Assembly: GCF_963675165.1 (NCBI RefSeq)
Contig: NC_087384.1
Location: 2,068,501 to 2,132,500, forward strand
DNA: 64,000 nucleotides
Reading direction: 5' to 3'
Source: Halichondria panicea
Taxonomy: Eukaryota; Porifera; Demospongiae; Suberitida; Halichondriidae
Shown: positions 3,640 through 52,070 of the stretch, piece after piece
How positions within the stretch are numbered: the stretch's first letter is position 1
Layout: every line of letters starts with the position of its first letter
Notes under the pieces: model-generated
Told to the model about the DNA's origin: nothing
Seen by the model: the letters and a program-made list of their open reading frames with translations, nothing else
Databases searched by the model: none
Program-made: the position numbers and the translations under genes

Positions 3640-6600
3640 ATGGCAGAGAGGTGCTCACCAGTGGTTGACATGACAATAGAAGAGGCCCTAGAAATAATGG
3701 AAGCTATGATGGATCTGCTTAAGGTACGTATATAAGAAATAACTGTTAGTGAACAAATGTAACCCAAGCAGTTACGTATAAGTATAATATACAAGTTTCA
3801 CCACACAGATGCATGTCAAGCGCTTTAGCCGATTAAGAATTTGAACACAAAGCAACTAATTTTAAAGACATTAACTCAGCAATAATGCACAGAAACTTTT
3901 GAGATTATTCTATAGCACAAACTGACTTCTTACCTCTAATAGATAATTATAGTTATCGTACATGATATAATATATAACGTATAGCGCAAAATTTTCGAGG
4001 TTGTCGTGCACGAAATCTATAATGTGTAAATATTAAAGGCGTGGCTTCCAGTAACCAATCAACCCACGAACGTTATGCAACGAAATGCTTTTAGAGGCCT
4101 TTCTACGAAATATAGTGCCTCGAACATTTTGCACTATATATACAGGTATACTGAAATAAATTTTATGTTAGTGACCATTTTCAGCAAAAGTTGCCTGTAA
4201 GGTGCGGCCTACGAGTACCGGAGATAGTACTAGGAGGGTCGCTAGGCACAAGGACAGAGTTACCAGAACAATACGATGCTGACATCATCATATACTCACC
4301 AGGTATATATATACCATGCAGAGGCTTATTACCATAACCACCTGTTTTTTCAAGCAGTTAAAAGAGTTTTGTCGACAATTTAACTCTGCATATAGCTACA
4401 TTTCAACACTAACCCTCTCACAGACATCACAATTAAGGAGGTGATAAGGAATGGCTATGGACTCTGGCTAAACCAGATCAATCAGTTAATGCACTCGGAG
4501 AAAGACCTAGCTGAGGGGTTCGAATTCCATGCCCTCACAGACAAGGGGTTGCAATTCACATTTGAGGGGATTGAGATTGAGATTATGGTCAGTCCAAATT
4601 GGAGAAAGCCAGCTGACTTCTACACCTTCCTAGAGACTTTGAGACCAGCACACAGAAAATTGTGAGTTGGTACTAATTGGCAGGTAATTTATTATTACGC
4701 TTTGGTCTGTCTTTGTATAGGTTTACTCAGTGTGCTGCAAAATGGCAGATCCAGTTTCTAAAAAATCAAGCTACTCGGGTGAGAAAGAGACCGTTTACTA
4801 TACTATAGGTGTCTTATAATTATGTGAAAGTATAGGAGACGTTTTAGTCTTGCTTACAAGCATGATTATGAGAAAGCAGTTCTGCCATTACAGATAATTT
4901 CATTAATACATAAAAAAAGTATCATCACTATGATTATAATAAAATTAATGCAGTGTGAGTTTTGTTGTTTATCCCATTTAGAGAGGTAATTTTTGTCGTG
5001 AGTTCATTCGTCGAGCAAAGGCATGGCGTGCGCTCAAGTGGAGGCAGTGTACGGGGGGACGAGGGAGGCCCTCCTCCTATCTGCTCTCCCTCCTGGTCAT
5101 CCACGCCTACGAGAATGCTCACAAGACACTGGGCGTGTTCTCCACACTCAGTCCAGAGACACTAGCACAACAGTGAGTGGGCGGGTAGAGAGGTAACCAA
5201 GGGTACAATGGGCACAATGTACATCAATGAGTGGGTGAATAAGGGAGGTATATAAAGTACATGCATGCATGTACAGTTAGTGGGCAGGTAAGGAAGTAAC
5301 TATGAGAGCATAGTATATATATAGGCCTAGCTAATAATTACATAAATCGAAAACATACTACTGTATAATATATATATATACAACATAATTATATACATTG
5401 CCTATAAATTATATTTCTGCAACTTTAAGTGCTATAATTATAGCTGATTACTAAAAAGTATTAATAAATGAACAAATTGTTTATACAATGTACATATGGT
5501 AGCAATCACTGATTTGCACCAACTGTAATGAAATTACTTGCAGTGCCACAGAAGAGCTAAAGAGTATTGTATACAACTGTGACAAAGTCAAGTGAGTTAT
5601 AGCCGGTTATTCATTTAACATAAAGGCGACAAGCTGTTGCTATAACAGTATATAAAGTGGAACCTCGGCTACTCGACTTGTCATATTCAGTTCACCACGA
5701 TATAATCATGTTTAACTAATAATCAGAAAACGAGCGAGTCCATTAATGTGCATGCGCATTATATCTGTTACCATGCTGCATGCACCATGCATGGAGACAT
5801 ATTTTCTGCGCATGTGCAGACGACCACATACACTAAATTTGCACTGCTGTTTGTTAAGTGGGTAGATAAAGGCGTAGTTTATCCATTCGATTATCCGGTA
5901 TATAATTATTCAGATATCTGGCCTGCCTCTGGAAATCAAGGTGTCCAGATAATCAAGTGAAGTACAACCTGTGCCTTAATCTTATAAGTGAACCAAGCTC
6001 TTTCTATAGTGCGAATCAGCATAAACTTCCAAAATGTTGTTTTACAATTAGATATAATAACTCAGTAATGAATCACTACGGCCACTATTCATGATCAACT
6101 ATGCAGGTCAACTAAGAGGTAGTGGGCCTACATTTTGTAGGGATTCAATTTTCATGAATACACTTAACGCTTTACTAATTGATTTGAACAATGGATTGAT
6201 TGATTTTGCTTCAAAAGGATTCAACTCCTCCCCTGCTCAATTTTACCACACCAAATTTGTTATGCATGCCTTACATTCCATTGCAAACCATTCGCATTAT
6301 AAGTGGATGAAGAAAAAAGTTACGCTCACAAATTTTGCGCAGATGGTACAGGGAACAAGTTCTGAGGTAGTTTAGGAGTGGGCGTGGCCTAACATTCGTT
6401 TGGACCAACCTTTTGTGCCATTTTTAACGTCTTCCATTAATTAATTTTTTCAGAAATAAGTTCCTACACTCCTAATAATGTAAGTAATCACTAGTGAGCC
6501 TTCAATGAAGCTGTTGTAGAATACTCAATTTTGGAGTGCAAATACAATTTCGGAAGTTTATGCTGAATTGCACTATACAGTAAAATTTGTAGACGTGTGC

Positions 6601-7034
6601 CTTGGCTAGTTATTGTAGCAGGATAGACTCACTTAATCAAATTGATAATCATTGCACAACTGAACTTTACATAAGATCAACTGCTGTTACATAGTTCCTA
6701 TGACATCATACATGACATCATACACTGTTATATTATAAATAGTACCAACTGTCACAAAATTAATCCCCCCCCACGCACGCACGCACACACACACATACAC
6801 ACATGCAGCATATACTGGGAGCAGTGCTACGCTATGAAGCAGTACCCTACCCTAGTTCCCCCGAGGGCACCTCGCATCATTGACCCGGCTAACCCCACAC
6901 ATAATCTGTACCTTACAGGGCTCGCAAATTTTGAGCCCTACAAAAGGTGTGGAGAATACGACACTGGGACGGGGGATTGGAGTTCTCTAATCAGAAACAT
7001 TGGAACGCTAGACTTAAGTAAACCAGTAGAATGA
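3640..7034 (+). CDS. OAS-like nucleotidyltransferase, gene A (seven exons)
   Basis: Exons 3640-3723, 4185-4302, 4424-4661, 4721-4778, 4982-5172, 5544-5591 and 6809-7034 join in phase to 320 codons plus TGA, with GT-AG introns. Exon 2 has the P-loop-like G-G-S-L-G-T and metal ligands D-A-D. Exon 5 has R-R-A-K-A-W-R. Exon 7 has N-I-Y-W-E and I-I-D-P-A-N-P. In the OAS family these build a template-independent synthetase making 2'-5'-linked oligoadenylate from ATP. The third catalytic acid, Asp in the V-D-L-L-V-S-P motif of the intact paralogs, is Glu here (I-E-I-E-I-M-V-S-P, codon 4579-4581), so activity may be altered or lost. Introns 1 and 6 carry transposable inserts. It is the first and one of the most divergent copies of the array. 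Confidence 0.88.
3978..4150. mobile_element. Degenerate TACCGTATAGCG-type MITE in intron 1 of gene A
   Basis: Starts AACGTATAGCGCAAAATTTT and ends with an imperfect inverted counterpart (CGAACATTTTGCACTATATA). The inner AGGCGTGGCTTCC and ACGAAATGCTTTTAGAGGCC parallel the cleaner copy at 25215-25452 in inverse orientation. It lies wholly inside intron 1. Confidence 0.6.
6009..6573. mobile_element. 565-bp inverted-repeat element in intron 6 of gene A, with a 94-codon ORF
   Basis: The left end GTGCGAATCAGCATAAACTT matches the reverse complement of the right end (AGTTTATGCTGAATTGCAC) with about two mismatches. TATA sits on both sides (6005-6008 and 6574-6577), consistent with a TA or TATA target duplication. 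Inside, 6091-6375 (+) is open for 94 codons. I do not recognise its product; it has no transposase motif that I can see. It inflates intron 6 to about 1.2 kb, against much shorter introns at this position in most paralogs. Confidence 0.7.
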
Positions 7035-8990
7035 ATATAATTATCACAGCGTAATTGTGTCTATAACTATTCTATCGAAAAAATTAACATACGAATAGGG
7101 GCGTTTCACCATGCAGTATATACGTGGGTGTGATTTCAATATAGAAAATATTAGCCTGCATGCATGGGGGCCAGACCTTTTCTCAGAGGGGAGAGCGGCC
7201 GAGAGGCAAGAGAAGAAAAGGCCTGGAAACTCTTGTAGCAGTCCATGTACCTACATGCTCTTGCATGGAATGTCAATAATTAGTTAAAACTTGTGATATT
7301 GGAGGTTGTAAAGAAGGAGTAGATGTAGCAATACTCTCATTTCGTATTCAAGAGGCAATACTCGCATTTATTTGGGTTAAAAATCACAAGACATAGGATA
7401 TGCATTTCATTGGCTCTGCATGGCCACATTCTGCAGAGCACACGGAAATGCTGCAAGAGTCTCCAGACCTAATCCTAGGGCTCACGAGGACAATGGCATG
7501 ATATAAACAGATATAATTATAATTATATATAATCATTATCTATCTACATATTCACCTACAACGTAAATACATGCAAGAGACTGAGTCGAGTCGCAGCCAG
7601 TAGGCTACTCAGTGGCTGCGAGTAGCTAGCTAGCGAGTTTAAGAGTATGGTAAAGTCAAAACTAACATTTAGTAACGGGTATTAAGCTTATAGATCTACA
7701 TACACAGTATACAGTGTGAAGGCATGATCTCAGTCATGGAATAATAGTATCTTAAATTGTCAGTACAGTTTGATCCCTAAAAACTCCATTCCATTCAATA
7801 CCAGATGACATCCGCCGCCGTTCTTCAGAAACTTGTCAGACACTGAGTGGCTATATAGGTATTCACCATGGAATAACTGGACAAGAGCCAGGAGAATCAG
7901 AGCTTTCATAAGCTTCATGTAGACTCGCAAGCCGTCACTGTTCACCTGCAACAGTGACGGCTTGCGAGTCTAAGCTTCATGAGCATGCACGGGAAGCCAT
8001 CTTTGAGTAATAAAGTGAGTGAAGTAGATCTATATCGAAATATCAAAGTTTGTATCCTTCTGACAAGAAACAAGAGCAGTGGATAGCAGATTATATGAAT
8101 GGCAGAGCAAACAGCATGATCACCAATTGTAAGGAATTGTATTTGAAGGTGCATCTGGAACACAGTGAAACAATAAAACAAGCTATATATATAGAGACTC
8201 CATGGTGGACAAAGTAGAAACACACAAAGTTACATGCAGCTATAAAAATGTTTAAGATTAAGGTCTATATATAATTATAATTATAGACTATAAATTAAAA
8301 TAGTTATATATACTGTTTCGGATGTGTCTACGGGATTTAGAATGTCATGCAAAGGCACTGCTGTAGTACCCCGAGCGTAGTGAGTGTATTAAAAGTGCCT
8401 GGCTCTATAAAAATGTAGCAAAAGTCAAAAAAATCAGCACCCCCCTAAATGTCTCTAGCTAAGGTAAGCTTTCACTAGACTGAAAAATGAACTCTCCACT
8501 AGCGAAGGTTAATCGCACTGTCCACTAGCTAAGGTCAACTCTCTACTATCGAAGGTCATCGTATACTGTCCGCTAGTAAAGGTTAATCGTACTCTCTGGG
8601 CCACTGTACAATACAAATTCGATTCACAACGTAGATATACACAAGCTGATTCGAAGGGAAAAAGCATGAGCGTACAAAAGTGACAAGACAGTGGAACCCA
8701 ATGAGCCAAACTCCTATATTTCATCTCCTTGCTAGCACACTCCAAGAGTATCACGGGGACTGTGGGGAAAGTTCAGCTGTTTTTACAAAGTGTGAGGACA
8801 GGTATAATTATGGCCTCTTCTTAGAGTTTATAATTATAATCAATAGTGTACATGAACTGCATGTGTACCAAAAATCACCACTAGCCTATAACCTATGTCC
8901 TATAACCTATGTCATTTTTCAGTTGTGTGCTGTGTTTATGTCTACGTCTAAATTTTGTCTACGTCCCATTTTTTTGAAAAAAATCAGACA
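7035..8990. other. Intergenic stretch without a supported gene
   Basis: AT-rich DNA between gene A and a Gag remnant. It holds a perfect hairpin (7909-7981, separate entry) and four imperfect repeats of roughly 30-40 bp at about 8460-8600 built on CACTAGCNAAGGT. Minus-strand open frames at 7760-8223 lack homology that I recognise and overlap the hairpin, so they are not called. Confidence 0.5.
7909..7981. repeat. Perfect 22-bp-arm hairpin between 11-bp direct repeats
   Basis: Arm 7921-7942 is the exact reverse complement of 7950-7971, with a 7-nt loop (7943-7949). TAAGCTTCATG occurs directly on both sides (7909-7919 and 7971-7981; the second shares one base with the arm). It could be a tiny foldback insertion with a target duplication, or a product of templated repair. 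Confidence 0.85.
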
Positions 8991-9250
8991 CCTGATGCCT
9001 GGCCATGCTGGAAAAGACAGTTTGAACAATTTCGAGAAGCATCAGGCCTTACAGGAGAGTCACAGTGGAAACAAGTCAATACATTTTAGGAGAAGAAGCG
9101 GAGTCAAACCTAGTGTTCACTAATATTACTGCTGAGGAGCGAAGACAGTATGCTGCAGTAGTGGAAAAATGTGAGGAATTTTTCCAAGTACGCAAGAACA
9201 TCATTCACAAGTACACATTTTTGCGATTTTACTCTCATTCGCAGAATTAG
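8991..9250 (+). pseudogene. Ty3/gypsy-type Gag remnant, frameshifted
   Basis: The frame from 8991 reads P-D-A-W-P-C-W-K-R-Q-F, then F-R-E-A-S-G-L and Q-V-N-T-F, then hits a stop. The neighbouring frame continues with G-E-E-A-E-S and I-T-A-E-E-R-R-Q-Y, then F-F-Q-V-R-K-N-I-I, ending at a stop at 9248-9250. This order is the N-terminal Gag region common in invertebrate gypsy elements, which acts in particle assembly. A small deletion at about 9085 broke the frame. No pol part follows, so it is a dead fragment. It differs from the Gag of the element at 60.46 kb. Confidence 0.65.
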
Positions 9251-9287
9251 CAGAAATTAATACCCAATTTTATGCCACCTTTAAGTA

Positions 9288-9726: not shown

Positions 9727-9938
9727 TATATACAGTCCTTTATAGTGCTTTATTTTCGAGGAGCACCATTTTTAAGGTTCGAAGCCAATCCACGGAAACT
9801 GTATTTTAGTTCCTCAAAAGTAAAGTACCTTACATTATTGAAACAATAATTGATATGAAGCACTGTAATGATGACATACATGTACCTTGCATGCACTATT
9901 ACGCTTAATAGTCCAGAGCTAAAGACTCTGGGCTAAAG

Positions 9939-13260: not shown

Positions 13261-13269
13261 ATATCTAGC

Positions 13270-15172: not shown

Positions 15173-16734
15173 ATGGCCTACTTTAGGAAACCTACACATG
15201 CTGAGGCTAAAGCAGCCATTAGGGAGTTGGTGTCTACTCTACAGGTAATAATGAGGTATATGCATGCAGAAATCTGTATAATTATATATGTTCAAATGCA
15301 GCTTAATTTGTCAAGCTATACACATCCAAAATTAGAGTGAGCGAGATCGTATAAGCTGGCTCTATGGGACATGGAACAATTGTGCCTGGAAGCTTTGACA
15401 TCGACCTGGTGCTCTACTCTCACGGCAAGCAAACCTGCGTGCATACATGCATGCATGTAGCTGTATAGAGCATGCAACACCTGCCCATTCACTGGGCCTA
15501 TATCACATGTAACGTTGAAGTGCTAACTCAGAGGGGCACCTGGAATCCCTATACACCTATAATTCTAGCTTAAAAAATTTGAGGCGAAACTATAATTATA
15601 GACGTGATCATCAAAAGCATACACTATGCACGCAAACATATATATTATAGTTGTTGCTTAACTGCATGAATAACACATGCATGTTGTGCAGATGTGAGCG
15701 GAGATACTATCATAACTGACGGATATGACCAACACATACGACGGCTAGAAGCTTTCATTAGCAATCGACAGGTGTTTGGAGCAGGGGTCATTACAGAGCC
15801 CAACATAACAAGATATGCTGTGCAGTTCAAGTACAAGAGCTACATCGACGTGGATCTCTTGATCAGTCCAGTTTGGTGGAGTGATTATCCAAACGATCCG
15901 ACAATGTTTTTTCGGTTCCTTCGAGATAGTGTGCCAAGACACAACCTGGAAGTCATGCACAGATTTAGTGTGAACGCTTCCAAGTGGCAAGTGGAGTTTA
16001 TGAGAAAAAAAGATCAGAAGGTACTATTACATAACAATGAATTTTTAATTTTTAATGTGCATGCCATGCTTTGTGTTGCATGCATGCCTATAATTTTATA
16101 ACGCTTATATCGTACACTGCATGAACTCCATGCGTTCCGCTTGAGTCATCAGAATCTTGCGTGTATGATATTTTATAGGTCAAGGTGTACATAGTCCGGG
16201 CTAAAGCATGGAGGAATCGCCTATTGCCTAAAAGTAGAGTAGGACGAAGAAGCCCTAGTTCCTTTCTAATATCCTTGTTGGTGCTTCGAGCCTATGAAAA
16301 CCAGCAGTCGAGCCAAACTTATGGCTACCGTGGACACAATGAAGCTAGAAGGTAAAATTGATCACCATGCATGTATTATTTTATTAAGCTATAATTATAT
16401 ATGCAGTACCACTGAAGAGTTGAAGAAACTTGTTCGGAATCACAGCAGAATGGAGTATGTTTAATATAGATAACATTATCTCAAATAATTTGTATACACA
16501 TGCAGCATCTATTGGGAAGACTACTACAAAGCTAGAGACTACCCCACCCTCTTTCCCTCGTCAACTCCACGCCTGGTCGACCCGGCCAATCCAGCTAACA
16601 ATGTCTACCTGTCTGGCATTGGTACGTACCCACCCAACAAAAGGCCAAGTGAAAACGAGCAGGACTGGAGTCAGTTTGTGGACAAAGTGGAATATTTTGA
16701 CCTTGAGAAGAGTGTGGAGGAGATCACACGTTAA
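15173..16734 (+). pseudogene. OAS-like gene B, one in-frame stop, one intron precisely lost
   Basis: Exons 15173-15244, 15316-15424, 15692-16020 (exons 3 and 4 fused), 16179-16351, 16407-16454 and 16506-16734 give 320 codons including the final TAA. Motifs are good: G-S-M-G-H-G-T with D-I-D, I-D-V-D-L-L-I-S-P, R-A-K-A-W-R-N, and D-I-Y-W-E with V-D-P-A-N-P. Two oddities occur in exon 2: codon TAA (GTA-TAA-GCT) where gene J has lysine, just before the GS motif, and a GC donor (GGCAAG). Exon 2 also needs a different acceptor from J. The intron between exons 3 and 4 is absent without loss of flanking codons. Its nearest relative is gene J. It is either a very young pseudogene, a truncated protein, or the stop is a sequence error. 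Confidence 0.8.
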
Positions 16735-17357: not shown

Positions 17358-18869
17358 ATGGACTTTAGGAATTGCCACCCTCCCCACAGCAATGAGCTAC
17401 TCACTCACAAGGCTGCTAGAGAAGCAACAGATGAGTTGGCTACCCTCCTAAAAGTACTATAGAGCAACAGGTATAATGTGCAAAATTCACTTATCTACTT
17501 TACATGACAGGACCAACAGCCAATTACTATCAGTGAAGTCATCAGAGCTGGCTCTCTGGGACACGGCACTGCAGTTCCTGGAGACTTTGATCTGGACATG
17601 GTCATCTACTCAAGAGGTGAGCACCTGCTAAACACAGAATAATAGTAAGAACATTATTACATGAGGATTTTGTAGGCAGCTAACTCCTAATTTTGACAGA
17701 CCTAGATCCACACAAAGTTCTTGAGCAAGGCTATGACTACTGGCTAGAGAAGCTTGAGAAATTCTTAAAAAGAAGCAGCGATGTGCAATTTAAGAATAGG
17801 ACACCTCACTCTGTCCAGTTTCGGTACAAGGAACTCATTGACGTGGACATGCTGGTGACCCCTTGGTGGGACAGTGTCTCCCAGCTGAGCCTGTTCTTGG
17901 ACAAGATCCCGGTTCAAAAGCGCTTCCCGTGAGTTAAAATTTAAGAACAGAACTGCCTGCATGCATGCACATGCATAATAATTATTATACGATGGCCTAT
18001 GTGTAGAAACAGGAGTGCATGCACTCCTGGTAGAAACAATTAAATCAAGTATGCATGCCAATACATGCAGGTTCTCAATAGGAGCCTCAAAATGGCAGGT
18101 GCAGTTTATGCAGAAGCAAGACAATGAGGTAAGAGATACATTATTATAGATTGCAGTTCATCTACATGCACATTGTGCATGTATGTATATACCACAATGG
18201 TATAGGTCAAAGTGCTTATTCAGCGTGCTAAGGCATGGAGAAACAAACAATGGCCAAATGTTTACCCAGGACAGAAGAAGCCCAAGTCCTACTTTCTTTC
18301 TTTGCTCGTTTTGAAAGCTTATCAGCGTGCAAAGAAGAAATTTGGAAATCAAATCTTTCGTGATATGGCTGAAAAGTACGTACACGCATGCAGTTATCAC
18401 ATCATAGTATACCCTTACATCGATCTATTCACGCATAATTATACCATAATTATATTTCATGCTATATAGGACCTCCTATGAGCTTAAAGACCTTGTTCTT
18501 AGGGAAGATCAACAAGAGTAAGTCGGTCTATATACATCGTAGAAGTATATATACTGGCATTGTTAATCACTATATAATGTATAGGTATATCTAGATATGT
18601 TACACAAACACACACATCACTCATTGAAATACAGTATTTACTGGGACGACTACTATATGATGGTGGGAGGAACTGGTAACACGATTCTGCATGACCCCCC
18701 AAAACCCCCTCGCCTCCTGGACCCAGCTAACCCAGCTAACAACCTGTTTGACACCGGGTTCACCACTACACGTACCGGTGACAGGTCACATGATGAGGGG
18801 GAGGGGAACTGGGCTGAGATAAAGAAGAAGATTGAGACCATCGACCTTACTGTAGATATAACAGCCTAA
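17358..18869 (+). CDS. OAS-like nucleotidyltransferase, gene C (seven exons)
   Basis: Exons 17358-17453, 17511-17616, 17700-17928, 18071-18128, 18206-18375, 18470-18517 and 18635-18869 join in phase to 313 codons plus TAA, all introns GT-AG. Exon 2 has G-S-L-G-H-G-T and the ligand pair D-L-D. Exon 3 supplies the third Asp in I-D-V-D-M-L-V-T-P. Exon 4 has S-K-W-Q-V-Q-F. Exon 5 has Q-R-A-K-A-W-R-N and exon 7 has D-I-Y-W-D plus L-L-D-P-A-N-P. All residues expected for ATP polymerisation by the OAS family are present. No signal peptide or membrane segment is seen, so it is probably cytosolic. The start is the first ATG of an open exon of 32 codons ending at GT. Class 1 member. Confidence 0.9.
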
Positions 18870-29207: not shown

Positions 29208-30708
29208 ATGGCACTAGAACTGGCAGCAAAAGTGGAGCATGTACTAAGATCGGTAAGATCCGTATAATAATTATTATATGCAAGTGTTTTTGGCGATTTG
29301 GCAAATCAGGTGAGGTTTGCCAAATTTGTCAAAATAAAAAAAAAATGTTGTCAAATATAGCGTACACTATAAGCAATTTCCAAATGTGTAGCAAGCCGTG
29401 CAGAGCAGAATCGGAATAACTATTTCTGAGGTTGTTCTCGGAGGATCAGTGGCTTATGGAACCGCAGTCCAGGGGAACTATGATGTGGATTTGGTTGCAT
29501 TCTCACCAAGTCAGTGACTGATATTACAACAGCACAACAAACTAGAACACATGCACGTACATATCACATAATAACTATAATTATATGTATAATTCTATAT
29601 GTACATGCATAGCATCACATTTTTAAATCAGACATACATGCATAATTATATTTAACACAAAGTTGTGTTCAATTAGTCTTCTTAAATCAGGTCTTCACCC
29701 AAAACAAGGGAAAGTGTCTGAAGATGGGTACAGCACAATACTAGCCAAACTCAAGATATACCTTCTAGAGCACCTAACTGGGAGATATATACCCCAAAAA
29801 ATGGAGAAGCAATTTCATGGCTGGCGCTTTACTGCTAACTACTTGCAAGTTGATTTGCAGATCAGCCCTCAATGGGAGGACCCTAACCTGGAAGACATGT
29901 ATTCCTACATGAGAGACATGCATCCGGACAGGAGAATCTTGTATAGCTATATACGATATTATGGCTAAAGCTATTATATATGAATGCATTATATACGTAC
30001 AGGTTTTCTTGTGGAACAGCCAAGTACAAAAACTCCTTAATGGAGGGCCAGCCGAGAAGGGTAACTATATTAAAGTATATACTAGGTGCATGTATATTAT
30101 TGTCTATAGCAACAATTAATAATTAATCTACCTGCAGGCAAAGATACTTATCAAAAGAATCAAAGTGTGGAGAGACTCCATTTGGGATGGAAAAGTCAAT
30201 GGATGCCCAAAGTCTTTCTTTCTTAGCATTCTTGTGCTCATCTCCTATCATCGAGCTCCACAGCATCTACTCAGTGATGCAACTCCATTGAAAACCCTTG
30301 CAAAATGGTAATTAAACTCTAAGCTCCGTATATATACTAAAACTCTTACTAAACTATTGAATAATACATTGTACAGGGTGGCAAGAGATATACAGGAACT
30401 TGTGCAACATATTCGAATGGACCCAAACCTGGAGTAAGTCGAAATCAGAGTCCTATACAGCTATATAGTATTACCATGACAATCCCTATAGCCTCCATGT
30501 TCCCGGGGAGAACCAAGTGATTATGAGAAAGTATAGTCACTGCCTTCCTGACAAGCCACGCATCATTGACCCGGCCAACCCCTTCAAGAACTTCTACAAA
30601 CAGGGTCTCTGTCAGATTGAGCCTCAAAAGAGCGACTCGTGTGAGAAACGATGGGACATATTTGCAAGACAGATCGCAAGCCTCAACCTGGTGATGAATG
30701 TCGTGTAG
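29208..30708 (+). CDS. OAS-like nucleotidyltransferase, gene F (class 2, seven exons)
   Basis: Exons 29208-29252, 29392-29509, 29691-29940, 30003-30060, 30138-30307, 30377-30433 and 30492-30708 join in phase to 304 codons plus TAG. Exon 2 has G-G-S-V-A-Y-G-T and D-V-D; exon 3 starts S-L-H-P and carries the third Asp in Q-V-D-L-Q-I-S-P; exon 5 has K-R-I-K-V-W-R-D, a variant of the usual K-A-W-R-N; exon 7 has V-P-G-E-N and I-I-D-P-A-N-P. Exon 1 is very short (15 codons), so the N-terminus is trimmed relative to its paralogs; the true start could be further upstream. The catalytic residues suggest an active nucleotidyltransferase. Confidence 0.87.
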
Positions 30709-35392: not shown

Positions 35393-35402
35393 GGTACGAT
35401 GT

Positions 35403-37668: not shown

Positions 37669-39056
37669 ATGGCTCATAAAGTGACTAAAGTACTCACTAT
37701 AGAGGAAGCAAAAGTTAAAGTAGACAAACTTGTCACTGAATTCCAGGTAATAGATCTATACATGAGTCTACCTGCATGACTCAACTGTATAATTGTAAGT
37801 GAACATGCTTAAATGTTTATATTACTATCATATACGTATATAGCATGGAGATATCGGCCTAACTGTGAATGAGGTGATCAAGGCTGGCTCTCTGGGACAT
37901 GGCACTGCAGTTCCAGGAAAGTTTGACTTGGACTTAGTCATCTACTCTTCAGGTATTTATAAGCCGGCATTGAGAGTGTTTAGGAAAACAATTATAAAAT
38001 ATATGTATACAATAAATTATTATTTAGCTAAAAGCTGGCCCATGCATGCATTTCCCACGTATTTTTGTAGATGTAGATGCAAGAGAAATAAAAAACACCA
38101 GGGCAAAAAGACAGCGCACAACTTCTGGAGATATAGACACGGGCTATGGGAAGTATTTAGACAAACTGAGGATCTTCTTAGGCAGTGTGCCGGGGGTGAC
38201 GCTCAGCAAAACCAAACCACATGCAGTGAATTTCTACTACTATGGAATTGAAGTGGATCTGCTGGTTAGCCCAAACTGGCCAAATCTAGATGCACTCTGG
38301 ACGTTTCTCCAAGATGTTGACCGAGAACACCTTTTCGAGTGAGTACAGTAATATATAGCTATACACTGCATGTCATAATGCCATACATGAATCTGTTTCA
38401 GTTTCTCAGTGAATGCCTCGAAGTGGCAGGTGCAATTTTTCAGTGAGGTTCCAAGTCAGGTAAGCAAACAATAATTATTCTAAGACATACACATAACCGT
38501 ATGACATGCATGCATGCAGGCTAAAGAGTTTATCAAGCGTGCTAAGGCTTGGAGGAACAAAACATGGTCACACAGTAATGTGGGAAAACCAACATCTTAT
38601 CTCATCTCTCTTCTCGTATTGAAGGCATACGAAAATGCACGAGGGCGTGGTGTCAGCACATCAAGCACCTCATTAATTGCTAGAGAGTAAGTTCAGTAAA
38701 GCAGAATTTTAGTTTATAACACAATTGTGTGTATCTACCCAACCATGCACGCAGGACAAAAGTTGAGCTAAAGAAGATTGTTAGGGATCACACAACTGTT
38801 AAGTAAGTCAGATGAATATAAGATTGACACTGATAACCACAATAACATAAACTACAGTATGCACTGGAAGAGGTACTACACTTATAGTGTATCTACTCTC
38901 TATCCACGACTATATATACCAAGTGAAAGAGAACCAAGAATTCTCGATCCGGCAAACCCTACGAACAACGTGTATAAAACTGGAATAAATGGGAACTGGA
39001 CACAGCTGGTCACTAACATTGACACTATCGATCTCACAAAAGCTGTGGAATATTAA
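37669..39056 (+). CDS. OAS-like nucleotidyltransferase, gene H (seven exons)
   Basis: Exons 37669-37746, 37844-37952, 38071-38338, 38402-38459, 38520-38686, 38755-38802 and 38858-39056 join in phase to 308 codons plus TAA. Exon 2 has G-S-L-G-H-G-T and D-L-D; exon 3 has I-E-V-D-L-L-V-S-P; exon 4 N-A-S-K-W-Q-V-Q-F; exon 5 K-R-A-K-A-W-R-N; exon 7 starts N-M-H-W instead of I-Y-W and has I-L-D-P-A-N-P. Exon 3 carries an extra basic insert of about a dozen residues (N-T-R-A-K-R-Q-R) at its start, absent in C and M. Catalytic residues are complete. Class 1. Confidence 0.9.
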
Positions 39057-39729: not shown

Positions 39730-40313
39730 TTCTGCAAATGCATGAGAGTAAAATCGAAAAAATCTGTACTCGCAGACAATTGGAAATTGCATTAAAACCA
39801 CTTGCGAGTACACCAAGTGGTGCATCGCCCAAAATCTATATTCCTTGTTGTAATCTCATACGACAGTGGCTCAGAGTCTGTGTTGAACAAGCAAAACTAC
39901 TAGAATTGGCAGAATGGTGAGCAGTCTGGACTGGCTAGAGAAAAATGAATTATTGACCATAATTATCACGTATATACAGGATGACAAATGATCTGAAGTT
40001 AAAGAAGATATTTTACCTGACGCCAGCTTGGAGTAAGTTCACTCTCAGTATACATAAATATTACGTATAATAAAAATTATTACATACATATCACAGCCTC
40101 ATAGTCCCTGGGGAGAACCCCTTAATAATGGAGAAGTACTGTGACATCCTCCCAGACCGGCCATGCCTCCTCGATCCTGCCAACCCATTCACAAACTTGT
40201 ACCGACAAGGCCTCGGGGAAGTAAAACCGAGCGGGGGAAAGGACATTAAAGAACGATGGGAGATATTTGCAAAGAGAATAGAAACACTTAATCTTGTGAT
40301 GAACCTCACATAG
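39730..40313 (+). pseudogene. Truncated OAS-like gene I (D-like, exons 5-7)
   Basis: Only the 3' part survives. A decayed exon 5 (about 39780-39918) has the S-G-x-x-P-K-x-Y core. Exon 6 (39980-40032) is 53 bp where D has 51, so it is out of phase. Exon 7 (40097-40313) is fully open, with V-P-G-E-N-P and L-L-D-P-A-N-P, nearly identical to D exon 7. Exons 1-4 are missing; the space in front holds unrelated AT-rich DNA from 39060. Confidence 0.8.
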
Positions 40314-40645: not shown

Positions 40646-42153
40646 ATGGCAGCCTCTCGTGCCCCAAATCATACTGAAGCTGAGAAAGCAATTGGAGAAC
40701 TAGTCCTAAGATTACAGGTACTCGACCCATGCGCCACTGTAACTCTACCCTATATAAATATTAATACCCCTACATATATATACTAGCTATTCAGTACTGT
40801 GACAAAGCTATATATAATTATATCACAAGTTATCTATAGAATTTTCAATTCAGACAAACCTTTCAAAGTACACACAAAGCCCCAGTATTAGAGTGAGTGA
40901 GATTGTTAAGGCTGGCTCTATGGGACATGGGACGGCTGTGCCTGAACACTTCGACATTGACCTGGTGCTCTACTCTAGCGGTGAGTATATATATACGGGA
41001 CTAGCTATATGCTTGTCTTTACATCATTTAATAAATAATAATTACTGAATGCAATTTGAACATGCAGATGTGAACAGAGATACAGTGAACAGAAACGGAT
41101 ACGAAAGCTACTTAGAGAAAATAAGGGCTTTCATAACAGATGGCAGAGTCTTCAGGGCAGGAATCGTCACTAACATCAATCTGACTAGATACGCTGTTCA
41201 GTTTCAATATGAGGGCTACATCGATGTGGACCTCCTAGTCAGCCCTGTCTGGTGGGGGGGACAACCCAAACATCCACGAGAGCTCTTTGAATTCCTACGA
41301 GATAGGGTGCCTAACGATGCTGAAGCCAGGCATAAGTAAGCTACACGCATTACTTCACATGCATGCATGCTTTATGCTGACTGTATAATGAAAGCACGAA
41401 TGCTCTCTTTGAGTAAATCGAAATCACTGCATGTATGGTTTCTGCAGGTTCAGTGTGAATGCATCCAAGTGGCAAGTTGCTTTCATGAAGGAGCAAGATT
41501 CATCTGTGAGTTCACCAACACATTACGTTCAGTAAATACCTAATAGATTGTCACACAAACAAACATAAGGTGAAGCAGCTAATCATACGAGCTAAAGCAT
41601 GGAGGAACCAGCTATGGCAAAAGAGCAAGGGAGGCCGAGGTCGACCAAGTTCCTACTTGCTCACTCTGCTGGTACTTCACGCATACAAGACTTCCTCTGG
41701 TACTGCCAAAAGGTACGTAAAATTACAATAATATATATACAAGTTAATATTTGACACTCCACACAGCACAACACAAAAACTGAAGGAAATTGTCCGCAAC
41801 CACAGGACAATGAAGTAAGTAACCCAGAGTGCATGTGCATGTTTTTGCTGCGCACACACATGTGCATGATATACAACTGTATACAACCGAGTCTGCATGC
41901 ATGCTAATTTTCCAGCATTTACTGGGAGAACTACTACAACGCTAGAGACTACCCCACCCTCTTTCCTTCGTCCACTCCACGCCTGGTCGACCCGGCCAAT
42001 CCAGCTAACAATGTCTACCAGTCTGGCATTGGGCCGTACCCACCCAAGAAAAGGCCATGTGACTACGAGCGTGGGGATGGGGACTGGAGCCAGTTTGTGG
42101 ACAAAGTGAAACACTTTGACCTTGAGAAGAGTGTGGAGGAGATCACACGTTAA
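40646..42153 (+). CDS. OAS-like nucleotidyltransferase, gene J (seven exons)
   Basis: Exons 40646-40717, 40854-40980, 41068-41335, 41448-41505, 41570-41712, 41767-41814 and 41916-42153 join in phase to 317 codons plus TAA, introns GT-AG. Motifs: G-S-M-G-H-G-T with D-I-D, I-D-V-D-L-L-V-S-P, N-A-S-K-W-Q-V, R-A-K-A-W-R-N, S-I-Y-W-E (or N/K at the splice codon) and V-D-P-A-N-P-A-N-N-V-Y. It is the intact sister of B, and retains the 112-bp intron 3 that B has lost. All catalytic residues are present. It starts only about 330 bp after remnant I. Confidence 0.92.
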
Positions 42154-42205
42154 GACCGTTCAAGAGAGCTGACTAACTTTAGTACTTACATACACAGGAC
42201 TATAG

Positions 42206-42804: not shown

Positions 42805-42813
42805 GGACTATAG

Positions 42814-43707: not shown

Positions 43708-45561
43708 ATGGCACTGGCTCTGGCAGTACCCATGAGCAAAGCTAGTAGAGTGAGGACTCCACTCAAAGATGTCACAGCATTTGTGAAGAGGGTTAGAAGC
43801 ATACTAAAAAAGAAGGTGATCTTCATTTGGTATGCCATGTGCACTGTGTTTTTCTGCTCTAGGAGTCTACTCTGGGCATAAGCATATCTGAAGTATACCT
43901 TGGAGGGTCCCTGGGGCAAGAGACAAGTCTGCCTGCACACTTTGATGTTGATCTATGCATCTATTCACCAAGTACAAACACACTATGCATACACTATACT
44001 ACAGTTCATGAGAGCAAATGAGCTATATTAATTCATGTTGTGCATTAGCCTAAATTCATGCTAACCCTACAAGCCCTACAAAGGCTCACACAGACTGAAA
44101 CATAATTATTGTGCATATAAAAAAATTATAATAATTATGTTCAATCTCAAATTCAAAAACTAAAAATACTTACATGATTATACATAATTATGTTATCTTA
44201 TGCGTTATGGTATCTTACTATACAGGTCTGCATCCGAGCACGAAAGAGGCATCTGAGGAACAGTACAAATTCATACTGGGCAGAACAATCAAGTGCCTAA
44301 GGCACTCCATGACTGACATAAAGAACATTGAGAGGTTGTACCACGGCTGGCGTTTCGAGACCTCTAACCTGAACATTGATTTACAACTCAGTCCTCAATG
44401 GAAGAAACAAAGCTTGGAGGATTTGTACGACTACCTCAAAGGAATGCATCCAAAGAGGAGGAATTTGTGCGTAACCTTCTTGTCTCTTATCGTTCTATGA
44501 TATTACTCTCTCTAATTATGCACACACAAAGTCAGGTTTTGCTGTGGACTGTTCAAGTATCAGACAATGCTAGTAAAATCACAACCACAACAAGTACGAA
44601 ATATTTACGATATCTACAGTATGTCACATGATTTATTAACAGGTAAAAACACTTATAAAAAGATTCAAGGCATGGAGAAACAGAACATGGGACAAGCAGA
44701 AAAATGGCTGCCCTAAATCCTACCTACTGTCTATGCTCGTACTGATATCCTACAAACATGCACCTGCTGAGTTAGCACAGGCAGAATCACTAGAAGAACT
44801 GGCAAAATGGTGGGTGGGCTATTGATTTGGGAAAAGTTTGCATCCACTTGCTTCTCTCGCTTATATAGGATGACCAAGGATATCAAGAAGCTGGTCGAGA
44901 GTATTGCTATAAATCAAGACCTAGAGTGAGTTGCTTTACCATTATTTTACCACTATGTACAGTAAAACATTGTGGTACAACATTATGGTATGTATATACT
45001 GTACCGTATATGTAGCGGGTATATTTCAAGGGTATAAATTTTCGCGGAAATGCCGTTCATTTTCGTGGAATAGCAGCCTTTTGCAGCATGCATGCATGCG
45101 ATATTAAATTCAGGGTTATAAATGTTCGCGGTACATGCTTAATCCGCGAAAACCACAAACATTTATACCCTCGAAATAATTATACCCTCTATACATATAT
45201 ACGGTATATACAGTCATGAATTTGTACAACATTTCATACCCTAAACACGTGCCAGGCCGCAAAAACATTGCAATGCAGTAGCCATTAAAGGAAGTACCAA
45301 AAACCTAAATAAATGTACAGACACACAACTACTCTCTATCAATACAGCATTCACGTCCCCGGGGAGAACCCTGTGATTATGGAGAAGTACGGTCACTACC
45401 TACCCGAGAAGCCACGCATCATCGACCCATCCAACCCTTACAAGAACCTCTACAAACATGGCGTCTGTCAAATTGAGCCACAGAAGAAAGATTCGTTTCC
45501 CAAGAGATGGCAGTTGTTTCTCAGAGAGATCCATAACTTAGATCTGACTGTTGACTTTTGA
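43708..45561 (+). CDS. OAS-like nucleotidyltransferase, gene K (class 2, seven exons)
   Basis: Exons 43708-43815, 43863-43971, 44226-44466, 44539-44596, 44643-44809, 44869-44925 and 45348-45561 join in phase to 317 codons plus TGA. Exon 2 has G-G-S-L-G-Q-E-T and D-V-D; exon 3 starts S-L-H-P and has N-I-D-L-Q-L-S-P; exon 4 F-C-C-G-L-F-K-Y; exon 5 K-R-F-K-A-W-R-N; exon 7 V-P-G-E-N-P and I-I-D-P-S-N-P (Ser for the usual Ala). It is the functional-looking sister of pseudogene E. Intron 6 holds a MITE. Confidence 0.9.
45003..45205. mobile_element. Diverged TACCGTATA-type MITE in intron 6 of K
   Basis: The left end TACCGTATATGTAGCGGGTA and the right end with TATATACGGTATA mirror each other loosely. 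The inner GGTATAAATTTTCGCGGAA and CGCGAAAACCACAAACATTT also pair. No TSD is evident. Confidence 0.55.
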
Positions 45562-46320: not shown

Positions 46321-46802
46321 ATTGATCATAGACATACACATCTCGTTGCACTTAATTAGTACATGTACTATTATAAGGAACATAAGACTATAGGCAGTTA
46401 CCATGGTGATCGAGACAATACATTATATTATTCTCCTGAAAATCATAAACAAGTCATTCTAATATCTCAAGTTCCAAGTAGGACATAATGTGACCACGAG
46501 TTCACAGAAGTCATATTCATCTATATAATTAAAAGTCAGCAACTATATACATAACATGTACATGTACTAACGTTAGACTACCCAGAAAGTATATATAGTA
46601 CAGTACAATCATGACGTATTCCCCTCAGTTTAGTCTGTGTACCCGGGAGTTGCCTGAGAATGACATGACACATTTGGTGGAGGGTAAAGCCCTACATCAA
46701 AGGATGTTGTCAGCGCAGAGACAGCTAGGGTTATAAAGTGAGGCTACAATCAGTGCCACACACAGACCTTCAAATAACAGAGTGACAGGATAGAGATACA
46801 GA

Positions 46803-48225
46803 ATGGCTCACCCGGACATTTTAAACCACAAAAGAGCTAAAGAGGCAGTTAATGAGATTGCTACGCTACTCAAGGTAAATACATAATAAAATTCATACTA
46901 AACCTAAACCACAAGTTGTATCAAGTACTTGGAAATAGTATGACCTACTATTAATACTCTTTGTACATGATGTACGTACAAAGGATAACCAACCAATTGC
47001 CATCGGTGAAGTGGTAAAAGCAGGCTCTCTAGGGCATGGAACAGCCGTACCGGGGGACTTTGACCTTGACCTGGTCATTTACTCACCAGGTAGGCCAAAA
47101 CAGAGTTACCTGAATTAGCTATGGTATGATGAGCATTGCGTTTTGGTCGCAAATATCTTGTGACAAGTTTGTGAAGAGTTTCAAGTTTTGTGTCGCATAT
47201 AGCTACACACAATTTCAATTCAGATGTTGATACGCATACGATGCGATACAAGGGATTTGGTAAGTGGCTAGATCAGCTGGAGACGTTTCTCGAAAGACAG
47301 CCCAAAGTCGTGATAACCAAACGGACCAAGTTTTCCGTCCAGTTTAAGTTTGACGACATTATCGATGTTGACCTCCTGGTTAGTCCGTACTGGAACAACC
47401 AACACGACTTTTACGACTTTCTCCGAGGTGTCCCAAAAGAAGAAAGATACGAGTGAGTACAGTTTAGCAGTATATAGCAGGTGATTTAAACGGACAAATT
47501 ACATTGCAATTGCAAATACATGGCCATTCCACGCATACAAAGGTGGGGCTGTAGTTTTTAGTTATTGCTGTGGGTGTGCAGGTACTCTGTGTGTGCAGCT
47601 AAATGGCAGGTGGAGTTCTTTGAGCAACAACCAAACCAGGTACTGTATAGCCTAAGGCATGATCGACAATTACACTGAGCTACAGGTGAAGGAGCTTATC
47701 AAGCGTGCAAAGGCTTGGCGTAACAAGCTCTGGTCCGAAAGGAAGCTGTCCAACAAGCCCAAGTCCTACCTCATCTCTTTACTCGTACTCAACGCCTACG
47801 AGAAGGCCACAAAGAGAGTGGGAACTTCCAACACAAGGAGGATCGCCGAAGCGTAAGCTAAAAACACTTTAAACTACACAAATGATATGTATATACACAC
47901 TATAGCACAATGGATGAGCTGAAGAATCTCCTCCTTAACCGCCACGGCATAGAGTAAGTCAGCAATATAATGGTACGTATTAATTTATCTCATGTATGAT
48001 TGCATTGTATACAGTATCTACTGGGAGAAGTTTTATAGCGTGGGTGGAGGTGTGCCCTCTGGTCCCAACCTCTTCCCAACTTCACTGCCGCGTATCGTTG
48101 ACCCGGCCAACCCAGCCAATAATCTGTATGACACGGGCGTCGCCAAGAGTCGTGGTCAGAGAGGCGACGGGTGGTCTGAGCTGGTGGAGAACATACACTC
48201 AGTGGACCTGCTACAGAGCGTCTAG
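46803..48225 (+). CDS. OAS-like nucleotidyltransferase, gene M (seven exons)
   Basis: Exons 46803-46874, 46984-47089, 47224-47452, 47582-47639, 47686-47852, 47906-47953 and 48015-48225 join in phase to 296 codons plus TAG, every intron GT-AG and under 135 bp. Motifs: G-S-L-G-H-G-T with D-L-D, I-D-V-D-L-L-V-S-P, A-A-K-W-Q-V-E-F, K-R-A-K-A-W-R-N, and D-I-Y-W-E with V-D-P-A-N-P-A-N-N. It is the most compact and canonical member and a good reference for the exon plan. It makes no visible use of signal or membrane segments. A partial copy of its exons 3-4 lies at 34.97 kb. Confidence 0.93.
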
Positions 48226-48346
48226 TGTAGCCAAGCATGACTTGGAACTATAAAACATTAACCTGTGTGCTTAGAGTATCAGGTGTGCATATATACATTG
48301 TAATGTAAGATTAGTTGCCTAGTTATAACAGCTTCAGAGACAAATT

Positions 48347-49133
48347 CAGGGGCGTAGCCTGGATTTGAGAGAGGGGGGTGCTTGGGATGAATGGTTTGTC
48401 CGAATTGCTGGTGCACGGAGTGCACTGGTGGTGCAAAATGTGCTCCAACGGGGGTCTGGGGGCACTCCCCCAGAAAATTTTTGTTGTTACATGCTCTGAG
48501 ATTGATTCTAACGCAATCTGGCTAAAGAAATAAGGATACTGCTGCTTTGAGGGTACTGATGGTTAAGCCACATCTTCATCTGAAGATGTCCTATAAAATG
48601 CATTGTTTTGAGTTGTGACAATTAATTTAAATTTTGTTATTAATTAAATCAAGCTACTAACCAGGTTGGTTCTGCTTGTGAATTAGCAGAACAGGGTGGC
48701 AAGACACTTGCAGTTGCAGTGCTGCTCTATGAACTGGGCTCAACTGAAAAATACTCGACACGATGCATGATGGATGCCATGGTGCAGGTGATAGCTGCTG
48801 AACAGTTAGCCTCGATTCAAGGCCGATTCGGCCTGGAATCGAGGCTACTGAACAGTCTGCAACTCTGTGGGGGGCCTTAATTGGTCTGCTCAGCCCACGT
48901 GGCTTTGCGCATGTGCACTGGATGCACTGACTGGAATGAATATTTGGAGGTGGAGCTAGCTAGTTGGAGGTGGGGTTTTGAGTTGATCGTGCAATCTTTT
49001 ATCTATGGTGCAATAATTATTCTATGACTAGTTCTCTCATATCAGCTAGCTAGTAAAAGGAACTTGTGGAGCAGAGTCTGAGGCCAGAGGGGGGTGCTGG
49101 AGCACCCTCTGCCCCCCTCTGGCTACGCCACTG
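48347..49133. mobile_element. CAGGGGCGTAGCC inverted-repeat element
   Basis: The left end CAGGGGCGTAGCC and the right end GGCTACGCCACTG are inverted, followed inward by AGAGGGGGGTGCT on both sides. AAATT occurs directly outside both ends (48342-48346 and 49134-49138). These termini resemble hAT-type non-autonomous elements, but a 5-bp duplication is short for hAT. It contains the nested 41-bp element at 48807. No transposase frame. A similar tip occurs near 57335. Confidence 0.8.
48807..48847. mobile_element. 41-bp mini inverted-repeat element with 9-bp target duplication
   Basis: TAGCCTCGATTCAAGGCCG and its mirror make up essentially the whole element, i.e. it is almost only termini. Perfect 9-bp copies of CTGAACAGT flank it (48798-48806 and 48848-48856). 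It is inserted in a larger element. Confidence 0.92.
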
Positions 49134-49138
49134 AAATT

Positions 49139-49757
49139 TGTGTAAATGATAAAACCGAATGTAAAATGTACATTCGTAAAGCAAACGTGATTTATTGTAT
49201 ACTACCATGCATGCACGATTTTACGTACACGGAAGGTGACACAGTAAGTACCAGATCTAGAATGACATGGCATATTGGCAAATAAAGCCCCTATATACAT
49301 CAAAGGATAGCTGTGCCCTACTACCATAGTTCGTTATTCATTGTATGCTTCCACAAAGCCATGAATACTGGTAGTAAATTCATCTGCATCAAATTTTCCA
49401 TGAAAATATTTTCTGCAAGTGCAGTTCAAACAAACAACTCAAATTCCAAGTATACTATAAAACCTCCCATGCATGCACACACCCACACAAACACATAATC
49501 AAGTTACCTCTGTACAATGAAGTACACCGGTAGGTACTTGTACATAATTATTACATGAAGTAGGTTTCATCATCATGTGACTATTCTTGGCTTGTCTACA
49601 AAATTAGCACGTCAGTCATCCTCATGATTAATCATTCTAATATTAGCCAAATATGAATACTGTTCGGAAAATGGGGAAACCCACAACCATTGACTAACCT
49701 ATATAACAGCTGGCTGGTATATAGAAGTTGACCAGTGAAAAGAAAAAGAGAGAGAAG
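49139..49757. other. Spacer before N, no gene seen
   Basis: Non-coding, with short CA-rich stretches. The DNA right before N exon 1 (about 49670-49757) is a plausible promoter region, but no defined element is recognised. Confidence 0.4.
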
Positions 49758-52070
49758 ATGGCAAGGAACAAGGACATCACATTTGATGATGCTATGAGAG
49801 TTGTGGATGAGCTTGCAAGAGAAATAAAAGTAAGTCAGGATCGATAGTCGATATCAGTGCCACTGATGTGCCCAGGTGGTGGCTAATTCCAATCACACAA
49901 ATTGCCTGTGGTTTAGCCTATTAGTATTATGTGGTAAAACTGTGCCTATAAGAGGTGGTTATTTTTGTCTAGAGCAATTTTCTCGAGGTAGTTTTACCAT
50001 AGATTGAAGAGTTAGAGGGATAGGAAACGGAGTGGTGCACGTGATGATTTTACATTGTATCTGCTGCAGTGGAGCCACGAAAATTATCCGCATTACGCCC
50101 TATGAACGAGGCTATTAAGCACATTTTTGCCGGGTAACTCCCAAAGCTGTGTTTCCTCGAGACATCATCTCTTTCAGCAACTTATAATACGCCTAGTCCA
50201 TGAGCCACGTGTAGTACTTGCTAATGACTGACCACACCCAGTAAAAAGAGACTTTCCAATAAAGTTATATGTTCCCAAGGCTGTTTTAGAGCTATTGGAA
50301 CATGTAACGTGTAAGCGTGCTGGTTATGACTACTACAATAGGTATAGACCTTGAAATATAAGTGAGTTGCACGGACTAAGCACAGTTACTTGTAGTTTAT
50401 TATGCACTGGGTGTAGAAATAGATATTGTTGTGATGGCCTCGATTAAACCGCAGCGTAGCGCAGATGTTACTCGAGATACCAACCGTTTCCTATCCCTCT
50501 AACTCTTCAATCTATGTTTGTACTATCACCACGACCAGGGTGGGAACATATCACATTTACTACATGTATATAATTATGGTAACTAGCATGAACACATATA
50601 TTCACTAGCATCATAGACATGGCCTGAACAGAGTCCAGGTAACTCAAGGCTGGCTCCCTTGGTCAGTACACAGCCATTCCGGGCAACTTCGATGTGGACC
50701 TAGTGGTCTACTCAGAGAGTAAGTTACTCACTTGGCTGCCCTACAAACAATATTTTTCGTGCAACAAATACATATGCTGAGATAAAATGTCGATACTCTA
50801 CACATAATCATTACATAACAAACCTTGCTATACATAATTATAGGAAACCTCACATAGAGGAAGGGGGCTTACTTCAATTAAAGTACAATTAATTATACAG
50901 GTGTGGATCCAGACACTGTCCTGAGTGAAGGATATCGTACGCCTCTACACAAACTGCGAAGCTTTTTGGGAGGTCTACGGAGTGTCAAGCTTCAAACACC
51001 ACTAAAAATGTCTGTGTCACTGAAATACAAGACATAATGACCAGCAAGATCGAGAGCTATCGATAGACGTTGACGTCTTGGTCAGCCCTAAATGGGAGAA
51101 TCCAGCAGATCTCTATGACTACCTGAGGAAAGCCAAACAAGACGGAGCAAAACCTGCCCAACTATTCCGGTAAGCTAAACACACAATAACAACACAACAA
51201 GTGTTGAGTTGTAACACTATACCATGCACATTATAATTATAGGTTCTCAGTGAATGCTTCAAAATGGCAGGTTGCATTTATTGAAAAGCAGGATGATAAA
51301 GTGAGTATACGCATGTACAATGTCACGAATCTGACACACATGTATACAGTAGCTAGGGCATGCGTTTCAATTTGTATACTTAAAATCCTGCAGGCTAAAG
51401 AACTTATTCGCCGTGCTAAGGCGTGGAGGAACAAAGAATGGCCTGAGGGGAAGCTATGTACTGGAAGGCCAAAGAGTTATCTCATCTCAATTCTGGTGCT
51501 TATAGAGCTTATATGAGCTGGCATTGAAACAGCACTATGGTGGAACTATTGAGCAACGGTAGGGGAACTCCCTTGTGTACAAATCAGTATAGCTTCCCGT
51601 TTCTACAGAACAACAACCACTTTGAAGCAGATAGTGAAATCTCACCTAACAGCTGAGTACGTTGAGTCTAAAACTAGCCACACGCACTATATGTGTTAGC
51701 GAATTGTGAAAGCTAGCTAACATAATCACATCATTTTGCTTAGACGAATTACTAAAGTCAATACATGCAAAATTTCAGTGTCAAACGTTTCTTTCACAAG
51801 GTCTTTTCCAATCTATGCATGCACACAGTATCTATTGGGTTGACTACTACAAACCAGGGGACTACATAGACTTGTTTCCAGCCAGGCTCCCCCGAATCGT
51901 TGACCCTGCCAACCCGGCCAACAACCTCCACAACACAGGGATAATCGGAGGCAGCACCTACACTTCACATTCATACTATATACGAGCAGGGAGACGGCAA
52001 TTGGACGCAGCTGGTTGGGAAAATTGAGTCAATCGATTTGACCAAAACAATTGAACAGATACAGGCCTAA
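49758..52070 (+). pseudogene. OAS-like gene N, several frameshifts
   Basis: Exons 49758-49829, about 50636-50718, 50901-51169, 51243-51300, 51394-51558, 51610-51657 and 51829-52070. Motifs survive: G-S-L-G-Q-Y-T with D-V-D, I-D-V-D-V-L-V-S-P, N-A-S-K-W-Q-V, R-R-A-K-A-W-R-N, and S-I-Y-W-V or D-I-Y-W-V with V-D-P-A-N-P. Exon 2 is out of frame at TAACTCAAGG before the GS motif. Exon 3 meets TAA-TGA after K-Y-K-T, then the right frame resumes one base off. Exon 5 shifts after I-L-V-L, and exon 7 shifts after the D-P-A-N-P block. Four independent lesions make a sequence error unlikely. Intron 1 has a transposable insert. Confidence 0.85.
49994..50516. mobile_element. TACCATAGATTGAA inverted-repeat element in intron 1 of N
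   Basis: The left end (CATAGATTGAAGAGTTAGAG then GGATAGGAAACG) is mirrored exactly at about 50484-50516. About 520 bp, no coding frame. A relative with the same end motif lies at 55714-56430; single ends occur near 11800 and 12240. Confidence 0.85.

Follow-up and report, generated by a model that had tools for sequence, protein, structure and literature searches.

A 64,000-nucleotide stretch of the genome of the sponge Halichondria panicea (contig NC_087384.1, called C8 below, positions 2068501-2132500; hereafter the window) carries 16 loci resembling genes for 2'-5'-oligoadenylate synthetase (OAS), all on the plus strand and arranged head to tail. They occupy positions 3640-52070, from the first base of the first locus (L01) to the stop codon of the last (L16). 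The array had originally been predicted from sequence reading as about 16 same-strand loci, of which seven are intact, two nearly intact and seven broken or partial, with a common seven-exon plan. Each of these features was recovered. Searches of the window by tblastn with nine representative proteins (E ≤ 0.01) gave 389 matches, all on the plus strand and none on the minus strand, and every locus was matched by the protein of a different copy, the weakest being L14 (E = 9e-5). The flanks of the window and the gap at 10.8-15.0 kb gave no tblastn match to the same nine proteins.

Candidate loci were collected by six-frame translation and clustering and were then modelled with our own splice-aware aligner, which fits a protein profile to DNA while allowing for introns, frameshifts and stops; doubtful exon borders were checked by eye. 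Null tests used 13 tiles with two profiles, for 26 reverse-strand and 26 shuffled trials, whose highest scores were 100 and 104, respectively. Fifteen of the 16 loci scored 169-1645. The model of L14 reached 104.6, which is at the null level, and so this locus is represented by its P-loop exon alone. The same seven, two and seven loci emerged as intact, nearly intact, and broken or partial from these models, and the seven-exon plan, with intron phases 0,1,2,0,2,2, is shared by seven loci of the window and by every one of the 33 intact loci in the larger cluster described below. A score of 163 obtained at 60-64 kb in the forward flank with L01 as a single-sequence query was rejected, as the protein aligned there does not resemble OAS and tblastn gave no match. 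With a low intron cost, the aligner also suggested small exons in L05 and L01, and reading of the sequence led us to discard them.

Loci of the array

Coordinates in this section are window positions on the plus strand. Among the intact loci, L01 (3640-7034; 313 amino acids) has exons at 3640-3723, 4185-4302, 4424-4661, 4721-4778, 5003-5172, 5544-5591 and 6809-7034. The exons of L04 (17358-18869; 313 amino acids) lie at 17358-17453, 17511-17616, 17700-17928, 18071-18128, 18206-18375, 18470-18517 and 18635-18869, and those of L07 (29208-30708; 300 amino acids) at 29208-29252, 29404-29509, 29691-29940, 30003-30060, 30138-30307, 30377-30433 and 30492-30708. L10 (37669-39056; 288 amino acids) is composed of exons 37669-37746, 37844-37952, 38131-38338, 38402-38459, 38520-38686, 38755-38802 and 38858-39056. 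For L12 (40646-42153; 312 amino acids) the exons are 40646-40717, 40869-40980, 41068-41335, 41448-41505, 41570-41712, 41767-41814 and 41916-42153; for L13 (43732-45561; 309 amino acids) they are 43732-43815, 43863-43971, 44226-44466, 44536-44593, 44643-44809, 44869-44925 and 45348-45561. Finally, L15 (46803-48225; 296 amino acids) is encoded by 46803-46874, 46984-47089, 47224-47452, 47582-47639, 47686-47852, 47906-47953 and 48015-48225.

Two loci are nearly intact. Exon 2 of L03 (15173-16734) has a stop at 15352 with no usable donor after it, and L05 (20246-22911) has one frameshift, in exon 4. L03 also lacks the intron between exons 3 and 4, which are fused into 15704-16020. The remaining loci are broken or partial. 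L02 (9919-10097) is a degenerate C-terminal exon only (tblastn E = 4e-6), and the last exon of L08 (31515-33173) is closest to it. L06 (26552-28917) is an L13-like copy whose model contains 11 frameshifts and three stops. L09 (34972-35393) is a broken partial copy of L15 covering exons 3-4, with 94% DNA identity to L15 over 139 bases; L11 (39749-40310) is an L05-like partial copy with its last exon at 40097-40310; L14 (45907-46053) is an L07-like fragment. L16 (49758-52070) was modelled with four frameshifts and one stop. The window copies of L05 and L16 are both broken, and other blocks of the cluster hold intact ones: one of the L05 type, at C8:1694512-1696982, and three of L16.

Assignment to the OAS family

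The encoded proteins belong with OAS rather than with another group of nucleotidyltransferases, as the original prediction had proposed. Of five window proteins searched against Pfam, three exceed the cut-off for the OAS1_C domain: L15 (3e-14, with NTP_transf_2 at 6e-7), L10 (3e-12) and L01 (1e-8). Profiles were built for subfamily A (L15, L04, L10, L12 and L16 types) and subfamily B (L07, L13 and L05 types; L06 also belongs here). Against all PDB chains, OAS2 and OAS1 head the list for subfamily A (5e-27) and for the more distant subfamily B (7e-16), and the nearest chains to L01 are those of OAS1 (1e-8). The two subfamilies align with each other over their full length (2e-45). No profile search placed the proteins in a different nucleotidyltransferase family.

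Residues are labelled here by human OAS1 numbering, in which we take D75, D77 and D148 to form the catalytic triad and K60, R195, K199 and K204 to contact double-stranded RNA (dsRNA). In an alignment of the 33 intact loci of the whole cluster, equivalents of D75 and D77 are present in every one, as are those of K213 and W215, and Y230 is kept in 30. The third aspartate is found in 25 of the 33, so that the family at large retains the full triad, whereas the L01 lineage does not: the other eight, which comprise all intact L01-type copies, have glutamate (IEIEIMVSP in L01). From these residues, the L01 lineage is probably inactive or altered. The catalytically dead OAS paralogues of vertebrates suggest by analogy that it may act as a regulator. 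A lineage with a conserved Asp-to-Glu change offers a natural test of a noncatalytic role.

At the dsRNA site, basic residues occupy the equivalents of K60, R195, K199 and K204 in 19, 0, 17 and 6 of the 33 loci, or about one-third of positions overall. The vertebrate set of dsRNA-binding basic residues is not retained in full, and this set reflects vertebrate activation and does not define the family. This partial loss is in line with published sponge OAS, which, according to PMC6307210, have fewer basic residues at this site and work without dsRNA.

Extent of the cluster

The array extends far beyond the window. Protein searches of the genome (assembly of 131 Mb in 39 contigs) with L15, L07 and L01 gave matches on C8 and a second contig, C5, only. 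Exon matches from the L15 and L07 searches were combined into 77 loci, of which 74 lie at C8:1621449-2557358 and three on C5. The figure of 74 is rough in both directions, as 17 of these loci are single-exon matches, one gene at 2.34 Mb was split into two, and among the window loci the search recovered 13 of 16 and missed L02, L08 and L14. All 74 were modelled, and 33 of them are intact, which here means no frameshift or stop, phases 0,1,2,0,2,2, an ATG, a stop codon and GT-AG intron borders (33/33). By lineage, named after the window copies, the intact loci number eight for L01, five each for L12 and L15, four for L04, three each for L16 and L13, two each for L07 and L10, and one for L05. On C5, positions 3143999-3154421 hold one open OAS locus near L16, one broken locus near L10 and one subfamily B fragment.

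On C8, the strand is minus for loci to the left of ~1.83 Mb and plus for loci to the right of 2.07 Mb. At 1785980-1830738 a block shows the gene order of the window in inverted form, and blocks of C8 match the window at 90-97% identity over kilobases, introns and spacers included. Sequences at the block borders recur as well. The border upstream of L01 (window 2000-3500) is found beside L01-type genes of other blocks, and that downstream of L16 (52700-53100) recurs at block ends, with 21 matches, all on C8, of which six are full length including itself. The first 394 bases of the L01-side border (2000-2393) are a dispersed repeat that is present in five such places and missing in four. Outside the OAS blocks this repeat recurs on most large contigs, with 27 matches that are near-identical or similar to it.

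Copy history and selection

The nine lineages with an intact copy share only 27-51% protein identity with one another. Synonymous divergence (dS) between lineages could not be computed for 30 of the 36 pairs and is 1.6-3.0 in the other six, while mean dS within lineages is 0-0.093. A phylogeny of the spliced proteins, suggested as a check with the original prediction, groups the copies by lineage and sets subfamily A apart from B, with the deep order unsure owing to long branches. Taken together, identity, dS and the tree indicate that the diversity within the window is old and that the recent events are block duplications. The earlier proposal of rapid birth and death therefore holds in part: whole blocks were duplicated recently and single genes were lost in some of them, but the lineages themselves are old.

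Selection was gauged by dN/dS, computed as the ratio of summed nonsynonymous to summed synonymous change and informative only with at least 60 summed synonymous differences. Copies are not independent, and exchange may homogenise them. The informative lineages are L15 (0.11), L12 (0.18), L01 (0.21) and L04 (0.23), all of which are under purifying selection. The value for L13 is 0.42, and those for L16 and L10 (both 0.29) are based on one or two changes of each kind.

KEN-domain genes near and far

OAS enzymes make 2'-5' oligoadenylate, and the original prediction noted that no partner able to sense it was visible. This is true within the window. Elsewhere in the genome, a search for the KEN nuclease domain (PF06479; E ≤ 1) gave eight matches: four on C8, three on contig C3 and one weak match on C14. 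An RNase L of the ankyrin-pseudokinase-KEN type was not found by this search, which proceeds exon by exon and can miss genes. The three C3 matches are exons of an IRE1-like gene with a DFG motif, whose kinase exon matches no chains other than those of IRE1 at E ≤ 1e-10. A piece upstream has a weak match to the luminal domain of IRE1 (0.015), and the 18.5 kb around the gene showed no ankyrin-like motif.

The C8 matches (1960837-1976493) fall in the interval that separates the minus-strand half of the OAS cluster from its plus-strand half, within a group at C8:1960810-1978246 that contains three intact single-exon genes and two broken copies. The intact genes encode proteins of 734, 659 and 677 amino acids from the first methionine, each with a hydrophobic N-terminus, leucine-rich repeats (LRRs), one membrane-like span, a kinase with HRD and DFD motifs, and a KEN domain. 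Their nearest PDB match is IRE1 (9e-49); the KEN part alone matches IRE1 at 3e-6 and RNase L at 9e-4. Our literature search found no report of an architecture joining LRRs to KEN. Because the OAS region makes up 0.7% of the assembly, the position of this group is mildly unlikely to be a coincidence, and we treat a possible link to the OAS genes as a lead. A 2H phosphoesterase gene of the AKAP7 type, a family that includes enzymes degrading 2',5'-oligoadenylate, is present on C9 and on C5, unlinked to the OAS cluster.

Proposed function and growth of the cluster

We consider it probable that the loci are OAS genes with the function and history that follow. Judged by their residues, intact copies with all three catalytic aspartates would be 2'-nucleotidyltransferases that use ATP, and perhaps other nucleoside triphosphates, to form 2',5'-linked oligonucleotides. 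According to PMC2852836, both 2',5'-oligoadenylate and mixed 2',5' oligomers build up in sponges, whose OAS use several nucleoside triphosphates. Activity would probably proceed without the vertebrate dsRNA site, as has been published for sponge OAS. The product may serve as an intracellular signal, most likely in stress or antimicrobial defence, and its receptor would not be an RNase L of the ankyrin type. The cluster would have grown in two steps. Old duplications of single genes would have produced nine or more lineages. Whole blocks would have been duplicated afterwards, in part in inverted orientation, raising the copy number while single genes decayed.

Several observations weigh against this interpretation. 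Of the 74 C8 loci, 41 fail the criteria for intactness. Subfamily B does not reach the OAS1_C cut-off, with L13 at 19.2 against 19.9 bits and L07 matching NTP_transf_2 only, and a genome search with the OAS1_C profile (PF10421) gave no match, although it gave none in 14 controls either and is probably silent because single exons are short. The dsRNA site is lost only in part, given the basic residues that persist in 19 and 17 of the 33 copies at K60 and K199. Too few changes have accumulated in L07, L10, L13 and L16 to show selection, with L07 having three nonsynonymous changes and no synonymous ones. In the 400 bases upstream of nine lineage representatives, interferon-stimulated response element (ISRE), interferon regulatory factor and kB motifs are not enriched (one ISRE was seen, and 51 of 300 shuffles had the same number or more), and TATA motifs show no excess. 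Finally, the KEN group has ordinary genes as neighbours (GCN1-like and CS-TPR), is separated from the closest OAS loci by 97-130 kb and was not duplicated along with the OAS blocks.

Alternative explanations

The most serious alternative, which we regard as rather unlikely, is that the expansion was largely neutral, with blocks duplicated by unequal exchange, a high copy number that was never selected and only a few copies that matter. The large share of loci that fail intactness fits this idea, as does the breakage of all six loci assigned to the L03 type, and the number of duplicated blocks requires no selection. Set against it are the dN/dS values of 0.11-0.23 in L01, L04, L12 and L15, though homogenising exchange could also keep copies alike, and the intactness of eight of the 10 L01-type loci. 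Much of the block-level copy number might instead be an assembly artefact, produced if alternative haplotypes or collapsed repeats had been placed in series on C8. Some copies are indeed nearly identical: the L15 genes at 2.34 and 2.49 Mb have the same coding sequence and introns that differ by 0.2%, and several blocks share a 1.5-kb border sequence at 100% identity. Yet this single contig holds 10 L01-type and five L15-type loci, dS reaches 0.15 in L04, blocks occur in both orientations, and the dispersed repeat at the border comes and goes among them. Two haplotypes cannot explain this combination, so we judge an artefact improbable. The 16 window loci, being of different lineages, are independent of the question.

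A third alternative, that the proteins act as cGAS-like receptors or as CD-NTases of another kind, with cyclic di- or trinucleotides as their products instead of 2'-5' oligomers, is also quite improbable. L15 matches the SMODS model below its cut-off, E. coli CdnC matches the subfamily A profile (E = 5e-6) and subfamily B matches CD-NTases weakly (E = 0.015), but vertebrate OAS chains head every PDB list by many orders of magnitude, and the OAS1_C domain and a DPANP motif are present. The genome gave no match to STING (PF15009) or Mab-21 (PF03281), although control genomes gave none either. A more far-reaching proposal, to which we assign very little likelihood, is that the genome holds a complete region for OAS-nuclease signalling without RNase L. 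The OAS genes on both sides would supply 2',5'-oligonucleotides, the central LRR-kinase-KEN receptors would answer them or share the same response, and the L01 lineage would be a regulator. If so, the link between OAS and KEN ribonucleases would predate RNase L and would have used a different sensor architecture.

The interpretation that we prefer, of an old and expanded OAS family, bears on the long-standing question of what OAS does in invertebrates in the absence of interferon and RNase L. PMC6307210 gives one to 12 OAS per species, and a cluster with about 33 intact genes from nine or more old lineages makes that role testable. The KEN-nuclease receptors encoded in the region provide a specific candidate for the downstream arm.

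Other features of the window

Repeats lie on both sides of the array. A tandem repeat at 1017-1776 has 8.3 copies of a 91-base unit at 96%. Repeats with a period of ~165-170 bases at 59535-60000 and 59804-60202 have further arrays on C1, C3, C4 and C5, and broken frames at 61100-63940 resemble, by eye, remnants of Ty3/gypsy-type pol, with no Pfam family in the open reading frames searched. Ten open reading frames were submitted to Pfam, and the eight from window flanks and gaps matched no family. Dozens of pieces like window 57.9-58.8 kb at C8:336000-433000 suggest a second locally repeated stretch on this contig.

Comparison with known systems

The genes are members of the known OAS family, and what seems new is the scale and layout of the cluster and the conserved change in the L01 lineage. 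A 2011 paper by Vallmann reportedly, going by its title, describes expressed OAS genes and pseudogenes in Geodia barretti. In the literature searched on sponge OAS, sponge assemblies, KEN proteins and cGAS-like receptors, outside of which two relevant older papers fall, we found no report of a comparable cluster. The H. panicea genes resemble, on the published descriptions (PMC2852836; PMC6307210), the OAS of Geodia, Chondrilla, Thenea, Amphimedon and Lubomirskia in having a single OAS unit, low identity to vertebrate OAS, an altered dsRNA interface and multiple genes. They differ from these in the size of the cluster.

With vertebrate OAS1, OAS2 and OAS3 they share the nucleotidyltransferase core and OAS1_C domain, the D-x-D motif, the third aspartate in most copies, K213 and the DPA motif. 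In contrast to the vertebrate enzymes, R195 is never basic and K66 never lysine in the 33 intact copies, Q229 is replaced by serine, and only single units occur. The exon plan also differs, a distinction between sponges and vertebrates that PMC2852836 states. The L01 lineage is like the catalytically dead vertebrate paralogues (OASL and some mouse Oas1; PMC6307210) in having lost the third aspartate while remaining conserved; it differs in that the change is a conservative one to glutamate, there is one unit, and no ubiquitin-like domains were seen in the 313-residue model.

The LRR-kinase-KEN proteins combine a kinase with a KEN nuclease, as do IRE1 and RNase L. Unlike those proteins, they are encoded by a single exon, and an LRR ectodomain stands where IRE1 has its luminal domain or RNase L its ankyrin repeats. 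They have DFD for DFG, and DFD is also present in RNase L.

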